DNA from: Olleya sp. Bg11-27
Lineage (GTDB): Bacteria; Bacteroidota; Bacteroidia; Flavobacteriales; Flavobacteriaceae
DNA length: 64,000 nt
Direction: 5' to 3'
Assembly: GCF_002831645.1 (NCBI RefSeq)
Contig: NZ_CP025117.1
Span: forward strand, 3,239,001 to 3,303,000
Positions 42,563-48,578 of this stretch are shown here, piece after piece. The notes below the pieces were generated by a model, which worked only from the letters and a program-made list of their open reading frames with translations, ran no database searches and had not been told where the DNA came from. The position numbers were made by a program, and so were the translations under genes. Numbering within the stretch: the stretch's first letter is position 1; each line of letters begins with the position of its first letter.

Positions 42563-43135
42563 TTAAGAAATACGCTTTCTAATTCGGCTTAACGCCTGTG
42601 GTGTCACACCAATATAAGAAGCAATATACTTCAGCGGAATCTCTTTTATTAAGTTGGGACGTTCTGTAAATAAATTAAGGTAACGGGTTTCTGCAGACTC
42701 ATTTAACAAAGACTGTTCTCGTTTTGATTTGATCAAAAATAAACGCTCTGAAGACAAGCGACCAATAACATTACCTGCAAAACTTTTCTCATATACTTCC
42801 TGTAAATCTTGATATGAAATACTCCACATGGAAATATCTGTTAGCGCTTGCAATTTGTAAAGTGATGGTTTTTTAGTAAGAAATGAATCATACGCACTAA
42901 CAAATTCGTTTTTAAAACAAAAACCAAAAGTTAAATCTTTCTTTTCTTCTTGTTTCGGAATTAAAAAGCGCGCAATACCTTCTTCTATAAATGAGATATA
43001 GTTTTCCGTCTCTCCAACATCTAAAATAGTGGTCTTTTTTTTGAAGATTCTATTTTTTAATTTAGAAGAAAACAACTGCCAATCTGCATCAGAAATGGAG
43101 ACCGTTTTTTCTATATATTCTCTAATGTTTACCAT
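42563..43135 (-). CDS. Crp/Fnr family transcriptional regulator
   Basis: 190 residues. A cupin-like cNMP-binding fold (about 20-120; [27 protein letters not shown]) is followed by a short winged helix ([24 protein letters not shown]). The cNMP-binding consensus arginine region is not conserved, as is common for Bacteroidota members of this family, so the ligand is unknown. It may control the neighbouring desaturase gene; this is inferred from position. Confidence 0.85.
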
Positions 43136-43369
43136 ATTTACTTATCGTTTGCAAATATCGCCATATAATTTAATAGTTATATTAATTTTGACTTAAATAC
43201 TGCGATCGTTTTAAGAAATAAGTCTTAAATATTAAAATTAATGGTGAATTTTTATTTTTTTAAAACTTTATTGAATAAAACCCTTCCGAATTCATGCTTT
43301 TAAGAAAGTATGAATCCACCTTCCCTGAAAAGAGAAATAGTACTAAATGTGGATTACTCTTATGTTAAA

Positions 43370-44569
43370 CCCTTCCGAATCCATACTTTTTAGAAAGCAT
43401 GAATCCACCTTCCCTAAAAAAAGGGAAGGAATACTTACTGTTGTAGGCTTACTGAGGTTTGACTACTCTTATACAAACCCCTTCCGAATACTTACTATTA
43501 TGATTTAATTAAACTAATATTTAGAAAATACAACAATTATCAAAATCAACTAAATGAAACCTGTAAAAACAGCCGAGTAAAAGTCTCCTCCTTTTTTTAA
43601 GGAGGAGAATGAATTTAAAATTCCCTTAAAAGAATTTTAAAGAAAGAGGTGGTTATTTATTACTACCAAGAAAACCCTTCCGAATCCATACTTTTTAGAA
43701 AGCATGAATCCACCTTCCCTAAAAAAAGGGAAGGAATACTTACTGTTGTAGGCTTACTGAGGTTTGACTACTCTTATACAAACCCCTTCCGAATACTTAC
43801 TATTATGATTTAATTAAACTAATATTTAGAAAATACAACAATTATCAAAATCAACTAAATGAAACCTGTAAAAACAGCCGAGTAAAAGTCTCCTCCTTTT
43901 TTTAAGGAGGAGAATGAATTTAAAATTCCCTTAAAAGAATTTTAAAGAAAGAGGTGGTTATTTATTACTACCAAGAAAACCCTTCCGAATCCATACTTTT
44001 TAGAAAGCATGAATCCACCTTCCCTAAAAAAAGGGAAGGAATACTTACTGTTGTAGGCTTACTGAGGTTTGACTACTCTTATACAAACCCCTTCCGAATA
44101 CTTACTATTATGATTTAATTAAACTAATATTTAGAAAATACAACAATTATCAAAATCAACTAAATGAAACCTGTAAAAACAGCCGAGTAAAAGTCTCCTC
44201 CTTTTTTTAAGGAGGAGAATGAATTTAAAATTCCCTTAAAAGAATTTTAAAGAAAGAGGTGGTTATTTATTACTACCAAGAAAACCCTTCCGAATCCATA
44301 CTTTTTAGAAAGCATGAATCCACCTTCCCTAAAAAAAGGGAAGGAATACTTACTGTTGTAGGCTTACTGAGGTTTGACTACTCTTATACAAACCCCTTCC
44401 GAATACTTACTATTATGATTTAATTAAACTAATATTTAGAAAATACAACAATTATCAAAATCAACTAAATGAAACCTGTAAAAACAGCCGAGTAAAAGTC
44501 TCCTCCTTTTTTTAAGGAGGAGAATGAATTTAAAATTCCCTTAAAAGAATTTTAAAGAAAGAGGTGGTC
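43370..44569. repeat. Identical core: almost four perfect 305-bp tandem copies
   Basis: Units starting at 43370, 43675 and 43980 read as identical over 305 bp, and the unit at 44285 is identical until about 44569, where GGTGGTTATTTATT becomes GGTGGTCTTTTTT. Flanking units differ at several percent of positions. This points to recent amplification, or to ongoing expansion and contraction. Confidence 0.92.
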
Positions 44570-44886
44570 TTTTTTACTACCAAAAAAGCTCTTCCGAATC
44601 CATACTTTTTTTTGGAAAGCATGAATCCACCTTCCCTAAAAAGAGGGAAGGAATACTTACTGTTGTGGCTTACTGAAGTTTGATTACTCTTATGCTAAAC
44701 CCTTCCGAATATTTACTATTGTGGTTTAATTGAAATAATATTTAAAAAAACAACTAATATCGAAATCAACTAAATGAAACCTGCAAAAACACCCGAGTAA
44801 AAGTCTCCTCCTTTTTTTCAAGGAGGAGAATGAATTTAAAATTCCCTTAAAAGAATTTTAAAGAAAGAGGTGGTTATTTATTACTA

Positions 44887-45243
44887 CTATTTAAAACAAG
44901 TTTTTATCCCATTAAGCACATAATCTAGATCTTCAAAAACAAATTTATTCTCAATTCTGAAAATAGTAAATCCCAAATTATTTAAAACCTCATCACGTTC
45001 GTAATCTTTTAATTGTTGTTCAAAACGCAAATGATAGCCACCATCCAACTCAATGATCAACTTTTCTTTTGGACAATAAAAATCAACGATATAATTTAAT
45101 ATACTATGTTGCCTTCTAAATTTGCGTCCTTCTAACTGTTTTTGTTTTAAATGATTCCATAGTGTTGCCTCAACAGACGTCAAATCTTTACGGAGTGCTT
45201 TTCTCTTATCTTCTAAGTATTTACGATTATGTATGGGTTTCAT
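44887..45243 (-). CDS. DUF559 (Vsr/PD-(D/E)XK-like) endonuclease domain protein inside the repeat array
   Basis: 118 residues from ATG 45243; a longer frame to 45369 would translate repeat-unit DNA (MDSCFLKSMDSEGF) and is rejected. It starts MKPIHNRKYLEDKRKALRK, then the DUF559 core SVEATLWNHLKQKQLEGRKF, RRQHSILNYIVDFYCPKEKL, IIELDGGYH with the Asp...Glu-x-Asp acidic residues of a Vsr-like nuclease. Length is typical for stand-alone DUF559 proteins. Repeat units flank it on both sides, and its TAG stop overlaps the conserved end of the left unit. A role in spreading or amplifying the repeats is inferred from this arrangement, by analogy to REP-associated transposases. Confidence 0.85.
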   Translation of the reverse strand: MKPIHNRKYLEDKRKALRKDLTSVEATLWNHLKQKQLEGRKFRRQHSILNYIVDFYCPKEKLIIELDGGYHLRFEQQLKDYERDEVLNNLGFTIFRIENKFVFEDLDYVLNGIKTCFK

Positions 45244-45305
45244 TTTTACATCTATTGAATAACTAAAGTTATGAAAATATATTTTATGGGGGTTTGTGAT
45301 TGACT

Positions 45306-46440
45306 TGTGTTTGATTACTCTTATGTCAAACCCTTCCGAATCCATACTTTTAAGAAAGCATGAATCCACCTTCCCTAAAAAGAGGGAAGGAATACTTACT
45401 GTTGTGGGCTTATTGAGGTTTGACTACTCTTATGAAAACCCCTTCCGAATATTTACTATTATGATTTAATTAAACTAATATTTAGAAAATACAACAATTA
45501 TTAAAATCACATAAAAAGAGACTCGCAAGAACAGCCGAGTAAAAGTCTCCTCCTTTTTTTCAAGTAGGAGAATGAATTTAAAATTCCCTTAAAAGAATTT
45601 TAAAGAAAGAGGTGGTCTTTTTTACCACCAAGAAAACCCTTCCGAATCCATGCTTTTTAAAAAGCATGAATCCACCTTTCCTAAAAAGAGGGAAGGAATA
45701 CTTACTATTGCGGGCTTACTGAGGTTTGATTACTCTTATGTTAAACCCTTCCGAATACTTACTATTATGATTTAATTAAACTAATATTTAGAAAATACAA
45801 CAATTATCAAAATCAACTAAATGAAACCTGTAAGAACAGCCGAGTAAAAGTCTCCTCCTTTTTTTCAAGGAGGAGAATGAATTTAAAATTCTCTTAAAAG
45901 AATTTTAAAGAAAGAGGTGGTCTTTTTTACTACCAAGAAAACCCTTCCGAATCCATGCTTTTTACAAAGCATGAATCCACCTTCCCTAAAAAAAAGGAAG
46001 GAATACTTACTGTTGTGAGCTTACTGAGGTTTGATTACTCATATATAAAACCCTTCCGAATATTTACTATTGTAGTTTAATTGAAATAATATAAAAAAAA
46101 CAACTAATATCGAAATCAACTAAATGAAACCTGTAAGAACAGCCAAGTAAAAGTCTCCTCCTTTTTTTTAGGAGGAGAATGAATTTAAAATTCCCTTAAA
46201 AGAATTTTAAAGAAAGAGGTGGATGTTTTCACTACCAAGAAAACCCTTCCGAATCCATGCTTTTGAGAAAGCATGAATCCACCTTCCCTGAAAAAAAGGA
46301 AGGAATACTTACTGTTGTCGACTTACTGAGATTTGATTACTCTTATGTCAAACCCTTCCGAATCCATGCTTTTGAGAAAGCATGAATCCACCTTCCCTAA
46401 AAAAAGGGAAGGAATACTTACTGTTATGGGCTTACTTAAC
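45306..46440. repeat. Right-hand, diverged half of the repeat array
   Basis: Units at 45331, 45637 and 45942 are full length but differ from the identical core and from each other. Two shortened units (46244, 109 bp; 46353, to about 46440) retain only the first hairpin pair. The first 25 bp (45306-45330) is a unit fragment joined to the upstream region of the DUF559 gene. Confidence 0.88.
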
Positions 46441-46466: not shown

Positions 46467-46505
46467 AAAAAAAACGCAACCTTTTTGAGGTTGCGTTTTT
46501 TTTGC
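46467..46505. terminator. Bidirectional terminator between the repeat array and acs
   Basis: AAAACGCAACCT / AGGTTGCGTTTT with a short loop, flanked by A8 and T8 runs, so it can act on both strands. On the minus strand it would end the acs transcript, 166 bp after the stop. Confidence 0.85.
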
Positions 46506-46670
46506 ATTAGGGATAGTAGTGGCATCCTTTTGCCTTTTAGCAAAAGATATAACGGATAGCCCGACACTTTGTAGCTTAAGCGGAAAAGTGTAATGCCCAA
46601 ATAATAGTTTTATATATTATTATTATTATTATTATCCAAGATTGTTTCGTCGTACCTTCTCGTAATGACA
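46506..46670. repeat. Dispersed Bacteroidota-type intergenic repeats and a TTA microsatellite
   Basis: Contains GGATAGTAGTGGCATCC, a CTTTTGC/GCAAAAG hairpin, GATATAACGGATAGCCCGAC, about seven TTA triplets (46614-46635), and TTCGTCGTACCTTCTCGTAA followed by TGACA. I recall near-identical strings (for example TCATTGCGAGGAGGAACGA-like) from many Bacteroidota intergenic regions, so these are probably multi-copy elements. Copy number in this genome cannot be seen here. Confidence 0.5.
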
Positions 46671-48578
46671 TTACAATACATTATCCATAATATCTTGCAC
46701 ACATTCTGGATTTAGTAATGTACTTGTATCTCCCAAATTATCGGTCTCATTACTAGCTATTTTACGTAAAATACGTCGCATAATTTTTCCGCTTCGTGTT
46801 TTAGGTAATCCGTCTGTAAACTGAATTTTATCCAACTTAGCGATAGGTCCTATTTGCTCTGTAATAATTTGGTTTATTTCTTTACGCAGGTTGACATGAT
46901 CTCTACTTTCCCCTGTTTCTTTAAGAGTTACGTAACCATACAATGCGTTTCCTTTAATATCGTGCGGAAAGCCTACAATTGCACTTTCGGATACTGCAGG
47001 ATGCTCGTTAATAGCATCTTCGATTGGTGCAGTCCCTAAATTGTGTCCAGATACGATGATCACATCATCTACACGACCTGTAATACGGTAATACCCAACC
47101 TCATCACGTAAGGCACCATCTCCTGTAAAATACATATTGTCATAAGCAGAGAAATACGTGTCTTTATAGCGTTGATGGTTTCCCCAAATGGTTCTTGCCA
47201 TACTTGGCCAAGGGAATTTTATACATAAACGTCCATCGACCTGATTTCCTTTAATTTCTTGTCCATGCTCATCCATTAATGCTGGTTGCACTCCAATAAA
47301 CGGTAGTGTTGCGTAAGTTGGCTTGGTTGGAGTAGCAAATGCGATTGGTGTAATCATGATACCTCCTGTTTCGGTTTGCCACCAAGTATCTACAATTGGT
47401 GCTTTTTTCTTACCAACATTATCATCGTACCAATGCCAAGCTTCCTCGTTTATAGGTTCTCCGACGGTACCTAAGACTTTTAGAGACGATAAATCGTGTT
47501 TTTCTAGATGCTCTATACCTTCTTTTGCGAGTGCTCTAATAGCGGTTGGTGCCGTATAAAACTGACTCACTTTATGTTTTTCTACAATCTCCCAGAAACG
47601 TCCAAAATCGGGGTAACTTGGCACGCCTTCAAACAAAACGGTTGTTGCTCCATTACATAATGGCCCATAAACAATATAACTGTGTCCTGTAATCCAACCT
47701 ATATCTGCTGTACACCAATACACATCTTCCTCTCTGTATTGAAATACATTTTTAAACGTATACGCCGTATATACCATATATCCTGCTGTGGTATGTACCA
47801 TTCCTTTCGGTTTTCCGGTAGATCCTGAGGTATATAAAATAAATAATGGATCTTCTGCATCCATAATTTCTGGATCACAATCGTGATAGGCTTCATCCAA
47901 TAGTGGTTGTAACCATTGGTCACGACCTTCTTGCATGTTTATATCTGAATTGATACGTTTTGCTACCAATACATTACTTACATCTGGACACTCCTCTAAA
48001 GCTTCGTCTACAATCCCTTTTAAGTCGATAGTTTTTGCGCCACGATAAGACCCATCTGATGTGATTACCATTTTACAATCACTATCATTAATTCTGGTTG
48101 CTAATGCTGTTGAAGAAAACCCTGCAAAAACTACAGAGTGTATCGCACCTATACGGGCACATGCTAAAACAGAGACTGCTAATTCTGGAATCATTGGCAA
48201 GTAAATACAAACACGATCGCCTTTACCTACTCCATTTTCTTTAAGTACATTGGCGAATCTACAAACACGCTCATGTAATTCTCTATATGTAATATGAAGC
48301 GCTTTTTCTTTTGGACTGTTAGGCTCAAAAATAATTGCTGTTTTATCTCCTCTTGTATATAAATGCCTATCCAAACAGTTTTCTGTAATGTTTAATTTAG
48401 CGCCTTCAAACCATTTGACTTCAGGTTTAGAAAAATCCCAACTTAAAACGTTGTCCCATTTTTTACGCCACATAAAATGCTCTTCTGCGATTTCTTCCCA
48501 AAAGCTTTCTGGGTTTCTGACGGATTTACGGTAAACTTGGTAGTACTCTTCTAAATGTTTTATGTGATAATTACTCAT
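46671..48578 (-). CDS. acs: Acetate-CoA ligase (acetyl-CoA synthetase)
   Basis: 635 residues of the adenylate-forming family, standard Acs length. Motifs: ACS N-terminal RNPESFWEEIAEEHFMWRKK, the P-loop YTSGSTGKPKG, the acyl-pocket DTWWQTETGG, hinge GRVDDVI and the C-terminal acetylation-site lysine region PKTRSGKIMRR. It converts acetate, ATP and CoA to acetyl-CoA via acetyl-AMP. It is the last gene of the acetate/propionate gene group; the gap of 218 bp to prpE carries a dispersed repeat, so it may have its own promoter. Confidence 0.95.
   Translation of the reverse strand: MSNYHIKHLEEYYQVYRKSVRNPESFWEEIAEEHFMWRKKWDNVLSWDFSKPEVKWFEGAKLNITENCLDRHLYTRGDKTAIIFEPNSPKEKALHITYRELHERVCRFANVLKENGVGKGDRVCIYLPMIPELAVSVLACARIGAIHSVVFAGFSSTALATRINDSDCKMVITSDGSYRGAKTIDLKGIVDEALEECPDVSNVLVAKRINSDINMQEGRDQWLQPLLDEAYHDCDPEIMDAEDPLFILYTSGSTGKPKGMVHTTAGYMVYTAYTFKNVFQYREEDVYWCTADIGWITGHSYIVYGPLCNGATTVLFEGVPSYPDFGRFWEIVEKHKVSQFYTAPTAIRALAKEGIEHLEKHDLSSLKVLGTVGEPINEEAWHWYDDNVGKKKAPIVDTWWQTETGGIMITPIAFATPTKPTYATLPFIGVQPALMDEHGQEIKGNQVDGRLCIKFPWPSMARTIWGNHQRYKDTYFSAYDNMYFTGDGALRDEVGYYRITGRVDDVIIVSGHNLGTAPIEDAINEHPAVSESAIVGFPHDIKGNALYGYVTLKETGESRDHVNLRKEINQIITEQIGPIAKLDKIQFTDGLPKTRSGKIMRRILRKIASNETDNLGDTSTLLNPECVQDIMDNVL

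Follow-up and report, generated by a model that had tools for sequence, protein, structure and literature searches.

A hairpin array around a DUF559 endonuclease gene in Olleya sp. Bg11-27, a candidate amplified form of a mobile element

The described systems closest to the locus analysed here are the REPtrons, in which REP/BIME repeats accompany a RAYT gene: inverted pairs of short hairpin modules enclose a single small gene, other pairs that lack a gene are dispersed or arrayed, and the type of module follows the type of the enzyme. These traits have counterparts in what we call DUF559 elements, whereas the enzyme differs, REPtrons using a Y1/HUH transposase and DUF559 elements a Vsr-like nuclease together with a triplex-type third block in their modules. 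Homing endonucleases, typically found in introns or inteins, include a Vsr-like (EDxHD) enzyme, I-Bth0305I, with the same fold as DUF559; unlike these, DUF559 genes lie between inverted structured ends that would move with the gene and make gene-less copies. Two further classes of repeat are presented as orphans: CGTC-REPs (Di Nocera 2013; PMC3733652) without a mobilising or partner enzyme, and the intrastrand triplex motif BoxC/PIT/TM (Holder 2015; PMC4666352) without mobility genes. As for DUF559 itself, a role in mismatch repair has been proposed for Caulobacter VsrA, a DUF559 protein linked to cytosine methylation (PMC12907096), and a 2025 Legionella study reports a segment with a transposase and DUF559 among recombination hotspots (PMC12308824), which fits with mobile DNA. 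In searches of titles and abstracts in open literature we found nothing that links DUF559, COG2852 or ycjD to such repeats, which falls short of proving priority.

The window analysed here is a stretch of 64,000 nucleotides from Olleya sp. Bg11-27 (contig NZ_CP025117.1, positions 3,239,001 to 3,303,000). It carries a tandem array of units of about 305 bp whose single interruption is a DUF559 gene and whose neighbours on the two sides are genes for a Crp-like regulator and for an acetyl-CoA synthetase-like protein (Table 1). Repeat searches and TRF found eight near-full copies plus partial ones surrounding the intact gene; the "ten or so copies" of an earlier note on this DNA hold when the partial end units are counted. 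The eight copies of a 300-nt reference are spaced by 305, 305, 305, 306, 740, 306 and 305 nt, and TRF reported two blocks of period 305, at 43367-44887 (5.0 copies, 97% matches) and 45328-46363 (3.4 copies, 91% matches). Where the earlier note saw nearly four identical units, three adjacent units are identical and the fourth matches at 97%, from which we take the amplification to be recent. Each unit consists of a part A of about 109 bp, as given by the spacing at the right end, and a part B of about 196 bp. Other features read previously were borne out, namely four perfect inverted repeats in the unit examined (stems of 8, 6, 10 and 10 bp), a complete DUF559 gene whose stop codon (44887-44889) lies within the ACTACTA that closes the left-hand unit, and units without evident coding capacity, since the longest stop-free frame across 43341-44887 spans 64 codons. 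Directly to the right of the array, at 46499-46570 (+), there is a match to Flavo-1 RNA (RF01705, 57.3 bits, above the gathering score).

Table 1. Array, modules and neighbouring genes, in positions of the window
Feature	Position	Strand	Basis
Crp-like regulator gene, neighbour of the array	42563-43135	-	cNMP-binding domain
Left block: partial A unit followed by five A+B units of ~305 bp	43280-44887		repeat search, TRF
DUF559 (Vsr-like) endonuclease gene, 118 aa, ATG at 45243	44887-45243	-	Pfam PF04480, structure model
Right block: three A+B units and a partial end	45302-46440		repeat search, TRF
Acetyl-CoA synthetase-like gene, neighbour of the array	46671-48578	-	ORF read by eye
A-type module 1 of 7: on + strand third block CCCTTCC, inner hairpin, hairpin CCTTCCC/GGGAAGG	43370-43429	-	module rule
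A-type modules 2-5 of 7	43675-43734, 43980-44039, 44285-44344, 44589-44651	-	module rule
A-type modules 6-7 of 7	45331-45390, 46353-46412	-	module rule
B-type module 1 of 7: hairpin CTCCTCC/GGAGGAG, inner hairpin, third block GAGGTGG	43584-43651	+	module rule
B-type modules 2-5 of 7	43889-43956, 44194-44261, 44499-44566, 44804-44872	+	module rule
B-type modules 6-7 of 7	45851-45919, 46154-46221	+	module rule

Within each unit lie two inverted modules, A and B, each combining a C-rich hairpin with a further hairpin and with a third block in which one arm of the C-rich hairpin is mirrored, in B with one mismatch. Given this layout of hairpin plus mirror block, A and B could form intrastrand triplexes. 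A rule requiring a hairpin and a mirror third block, with blocks of 7 nt, picked out 14 places in the 64-kb window, every one of them within 43370-46412, a clustering that exceeds chance. In this respect the 14 modules share the arrangement of BoxC/TM, with the triplex form predicted, and DUF559 modules generally resemble that motif, as judged from its description, in pairing a C-rich hairpin with a third purine block; the second loops TTA and CCG given for BoxC also occur beside DUF559 genes of E. coli and Synechocystis, whereas modules of Bacteroidota often carry a second hairpin instead of the short second loop (PMC4666352). With CGTC-REPs (PMC3733652), type-I relatives share an inner hairpin with a CGTC tag and a TCCA tail, and DUF559 elements share in-frame insertion in genes and, at a Novosphingobium gene, inverted CGTC hairpins; the difference is that here the CGTC hairpin belongs to a larger module, which accompanies DUF559. 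The CGTC tag, stem-loop and CCA tail are present in type-I relatives and Novosphingobium, while the tags in the window are variants (CCGA, and TTTC on the reverse strand). By their sequence, the modules appear to agree with BoxC/triplex motifs as published and partly also with CGTC-REPs.

The start of the DUF559 gene was taken as the ATG and not as the GTG at 45369 of the mechanical ORF, which has 160 aa and matches PF04480 over residues 52-157 (113.5 bits). Foldseek searches with an AlphaFold2 model of the protein (pLDDT 92) found NGO0050 as the closest structure (3hrl, E 1.5e-7), followed by the homing endonuclease I-Bth0305I (3r3p, E 2.5e-4) and Vsr (1vsr, E 0.011), so that the model has the fold of a homing family. 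An alignment of 24 DUF559 sequences has 14 invariant columns, including D54, E65, D67 and H71, which we infer to be catalytic. To our knowledge, DUF559 is not a known class of transposase. A role in anti-phage defence was rejected, as PADLOC matches were weak or partial (the best 2e-7 over 47 residues of DpdF). The earlier note had also entertained a repeated structured RNA cut by this protein, and the unit does fold strongly as a computed single strand. We dropped this reading as very improbable: Rfam matches to the unit all stay below the gathering score, the modules are found on either strand as well as in frame within genes, and the fold best matches DNA endonucleases.

The relation between DUF559 genes and modules was assessed at 171 distinct standalone loci, pooled from three sets with six duplicates dropped. 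The family set comprised 81 loci from Flavobacteriaceae (80 standalone genes among the matches listed and the second gene of the source genome, with the window's own gene left out); the named-genome set comprised the best 80 of at least 572 confirmed stretches, mostly from Bacteroidota, with the gene end set at a fixed position for most loci and accurate to about 20-70 bases; and 16 loci outside Bacteroidota, from Cyanobacteriota, Deinococcota and alpha-, beta- and gamma-proteobacteria, were hand-picked from 39 records. A triplex-type module was present within 300 bp of the gene at 146/171 loci versus 13/1395 control windows, which were spaced every 800 bp and overlap slightly; by set, before removal of duplicates, the counts were 65/81, 74/80 and 13/16. 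Modules stood on both sides of the gene at 83 of the 171 loci versus one of the 1395 control windows, and at these two-sided loci the nearest modules were mutually inverted in 61 cases and not in 22, with the third block pointing toward the gene at some loci and away from it at others. Control ORFs of at least 150 aa had a module in 11 of 471 cases, small GIY-YIG genes had none within 300 bp (0/28), and module density was 3.3 per kb in DUF559 flanks versus 0.08 in distant intergenic DNA. In the family set, a direct repeat common to both 800-bp flanks, in some cases of only 20-26 nt, was found at 55/81 loci versus 20/441 shifted windows, and a TRF array of period 50 or more lay within 600 bp of the gene at 18/81. 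Perfect CGTC/TGTC hairpins occurred at 5/81, 13/80 and 2/16 loci of the three sets versus 8/1180 in the control, the perfect-stem finder being too strict for many DUF559 loci. Most of the DUF559 genes examined, in several phyla, are flanked by predicted hairpin/triplex modules, and the tie proposed in the earlier note extends far beyond the source genome.

That note had held that DUF559 genes without repeats in relatives would speak against the tie; the module rule finds none at 25/171 loci, E. coli ycjD included, and finds them at the other 146. The rule fails at three loci of other phyla: the Novosphingobium gene is bordered at either edge by perfect CGTC hairpins in inverted orientation, and C-rich hairpins can be read by eye at the loci of E. 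coli and Picosynechococcus. Several loci were noted for their setting. Genes with modules sit inside operons in Deinococcus psychrotolerans (L237, between paaD and paaZ) and Sphingomonas parapaucimobilis (L239, between sufB and sufC). At L125, where the rule finds no triplex module, two DUF559 genes 1.4 kb apart both lie within a 605-bp repeat of 96.7% identity, and we therefore consider them duplicated together with their flanks. Small GIY-YIG nuclease genes (28 loci, L285-L314 minus L310 and L313) may form a second nuclease-repeat pair with a hairpin repeat of their own: a GAGC..AGTCGA hairpin with a TGTC tag lies within 300 bp at 7/28 (for example L288 and L290) and on both sides at 6, versus 0/81 DUF559 loci and 11/1181 control windows.

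From genome to genome, the type of the flanks goes with the type of DUF559. Over 82 loci (3294 between-genome pairs), the similarity of DUF559 proteins correlated with the 7-mers common to the adjacent 220 bp (r 0.436, a value reached in 0/2000 permutations), while for sequence 1.5 kb away rho was -0.017, and the three proteins most similar to that of the window (L074, L091 and L088) are all among the six loci with the most similar flanks. Three strict module patterns were searched in 249 Flavobacteriaceae genomes, of which 119 have a DUF559 match. Pattern I matched 9 genomes, all DUF559-positive; pattern II matched 16, of which 13 were positive; and pattern III matched 18, all positive, three of them weakly. 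Combined, 32/35 matched genomes were DUF559-positive versus the base rate of 119/249 (p 6.6e-9), and 29/35 had a strong match (p 1.8e-9), a test that is partly circular because the patterns were drawn from DUF559 flanks. For matches more than 3 kb from DUF559 places, 24/27 genomes were positive (p 3.2e-6) and 21/27 strongly so (p 4.7e-6), with the sorting done by hand against the DUF559 places among the matches listed and leaving out unlisted places (G119, G157, G227 and some of G125, G176, G201 and G212). In the reversed-pattern control, the matches listed numbered zero. Among the 20 pattern I matches listed (18 distinct), the stems vary, CGTC and TCCA being fixed by the pattern, and 17 of the 20 have a perfect stem of at least 5, which the pattern does not require. 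Copies of the modules at a distance from the gene are thus found mostly in genomes that carry DUF559.

These data bear on an alternative in which other machinery, either another transposase acting in trans or slippage of replication where the DNA forms triplexes, moves the modules, and DUF559 is a homing-type endonuclease that colonises them as an ever-present target. The closeness of the fold to a homing endonuclease agrees with it, as do modules and arrays that lack the gene and the few pattern-matched genomes without DUF559 (G024, G045 and G245); in G157, which has ten pattern copies, the DUF559 match is weak. We nevertheless regard this alternative as unlikely: flank type follows DUF559 type, genomes without DUF559 hold 4 of the 191 pattern copies and positive ones 187, and DUF559 is the only gene inside the piece that moves. 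Nor do the two Y1_Tnp matches of the source genome help, as both are weak and neither is near the arrays or DUF559 genes, for which reason a RAYT was also rejected as the partner of the array; between the array repeats lies only DUF559, with no Y1/HUH transposase gene. One of the weak Y1 matches (L042) is surrounded, as judged by eye, by different hairpin repeats of the CTAGT..ACTAG type.

The source genome (one contig, 4.31 Mb) has two DUF559 genes, the second of which is also within a tandem array, with a different unit of about 174 bp and GTCCCC..GGGGAC hairpins. Two further arrays, with periods of about 183 and 270 bp, repeat the 66-bp core of the B module, which is also present in a third cluster (L035) and in single copies, everywhere at a large distance from either DUF559 gene; thus, as in REPtrons, inverted hairpin modules flank a gene and gene-less copies occur elsewhere. 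Units in the two gene-less arrays (L033 and L034) each also contain a second, different hairpin motif (..GTTCTCGATACAC..). According to the earlier note, units with no DUF559 gene nearby would count against the link, and such arrays are in part what we find; MITE-like derivatives would explain them. The gene-less units look like MITE-like offspring of a DUF559 element, being non-coding and having inverted modules, with mobilisation in trans putative.

Many DUF559 domains were found in frame within long ORFs. We read 23 such loci, 13 in leuS, 3 in metH, 6 in hemD and 1 in hisD, and for each of these genes NCBIfam and Pfam confirmed one example. A typical leuS insert starts with TTCCCCATCCTA.CCTTCCCC-AAA-GGGGAAG and ends with CCCCCTTCGGGGGCTAGGGGG. 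Among 30 further genomes, the corresponding turn of leuS is 21 aa long in 19 and 25-44 aa long in 10, while a single one has 174 aa including DUF559; in 4 of the 10 with 25-44 aa (L261, L263, L281 and the source genome, L284) a solo hairpin of the CGTC/TGTC type makes up the extra codons; the in-frame hairpin of the source genome is of the GAGC..AGTCGA kind associated with GIY-YIG genes. The metH gene of L046 contains two copies of an element that share 418 bp at 82.5% homology, bounded exactly by the inverted repeats of the modules (AGCCCCCC..CCCCC-AAA-GGGGGAGC) and with DUF559 as the sole gene, so that terminal inverted repeats enclose one enzyme gene as in an insertion sequence. Of 30 metH loci of other genomes, 10 showed site 1 uninserted (17-22 aa) and 6 showed site 2 so (24-35 aa), no insert of the L046 size was present at the anchored sites, and 16 gave neither anchor; at site 2, L050 retains a solo mini-module. 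No target-site duplication was readable at the metH elements. In E. coli (RR1) the DUF559 gene is ycjD, and in 3362/5426 E. coli genomes a match spans at least 80% of the ycjD query; in three strains examined at the sapF locus that lack such a match, no clean empty site was readable because an efflux cassette follows sapF in them. Module-DUF559-module is found within conserved genes as one insert, in frame and with exact module boundaries, and the double metH insert together with the uninserted metH and leuS sites indicates that it is a mobile element.

At the locus of the array, the copy numbers of gene and unit vary among congeners, a variation for which the earlier note had proposed to look. 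The array found downstream of this acetyl-CoA synthetase gene holds two DUF559 genes in G253 and one, in a different unit layout, in G251, while in G249, G250, G252, G254 and G256 the regulator is present and module and DUF559 gene are absent; no module was seen in G171 and G255, where the stretch examined lacks the regulator. Beyond the regulator, G249 and G256 have a 27-bp match to the unit and G256 a 30-codon tblastn match of 40% identity, and in the spacers of G249, G250, G252 and G256 another coding-looking sequence occupies the place of the array. DUF559 is found in 4/10 genomes of the genus. A role in repair or genome maintenance, in which DUF559 would process mismatches or structures at these repeats for the host and stand beside them for regulation, would agree with the link of Caulobacter VsrA to cytosine methylation (PMC12907096). 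We consider such a role improbable, since the patchy presence of DUF559 (119/249 genomes of the family, 4/10 congeners) and its inserts inside leuS, metH, hisD and hemD point to mobile DNA.

Taken together, we favour, at a probability of roughly 0.6, the reading of the array as a mobile element in tandem-amplified form, with a DUF559 (Vsr-like) endonuclease gene as its sole gene, inverted hairpin/triplex modules as its ends and a copying that would be driven by the nuclease. The selfish element proposed in the earlier note survives as a REP/RAYT- or MITE-like one, given the metH insert and the co-variation of flanks, although not with the array as its basic form, which would rather be DUF559 between inverted modules, the 305-bp unit being the tandem-amplified gene-less form. 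We infer that DUF559 catalyses the movement. It would recognise its cognate modules, probably once these had been extruded, as may happen in replication, in the form of single-strand hairpins or triplexes, and nick or cut at them; repair from another copy, or slippage, would then copy units to new sites and lengthen arrays, with gene-less units copied in trans. We know of no nuclease that joins strands alone, so host repair would have to finish the movement. Such an element would work like RAYT/REP with a different class of enzyme.

At about even odds, DUF559 elements are a distinct class of mobile DNA spanning several phyla, whose triplex/hairpin-ended DNA is copied through the action of a Vsr-like PD-(D/E)XK nuclease, and BoxC/TM repeats and part of the CGTC-REPs are non-autonomous offspring, which would make DUF559 the mobilising enzyme that has been missing for both orphan classes of repeat. 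The question is testable in laboratory E. coli, where a BoxC-like motif adjoins ycjD, as seen in strain H240. The pairing names a common protein family that is positioned between such repeats and moves along with them, and proposes a function for it; it may thereby provide the missing enzyme for bacterial repeats described without one.
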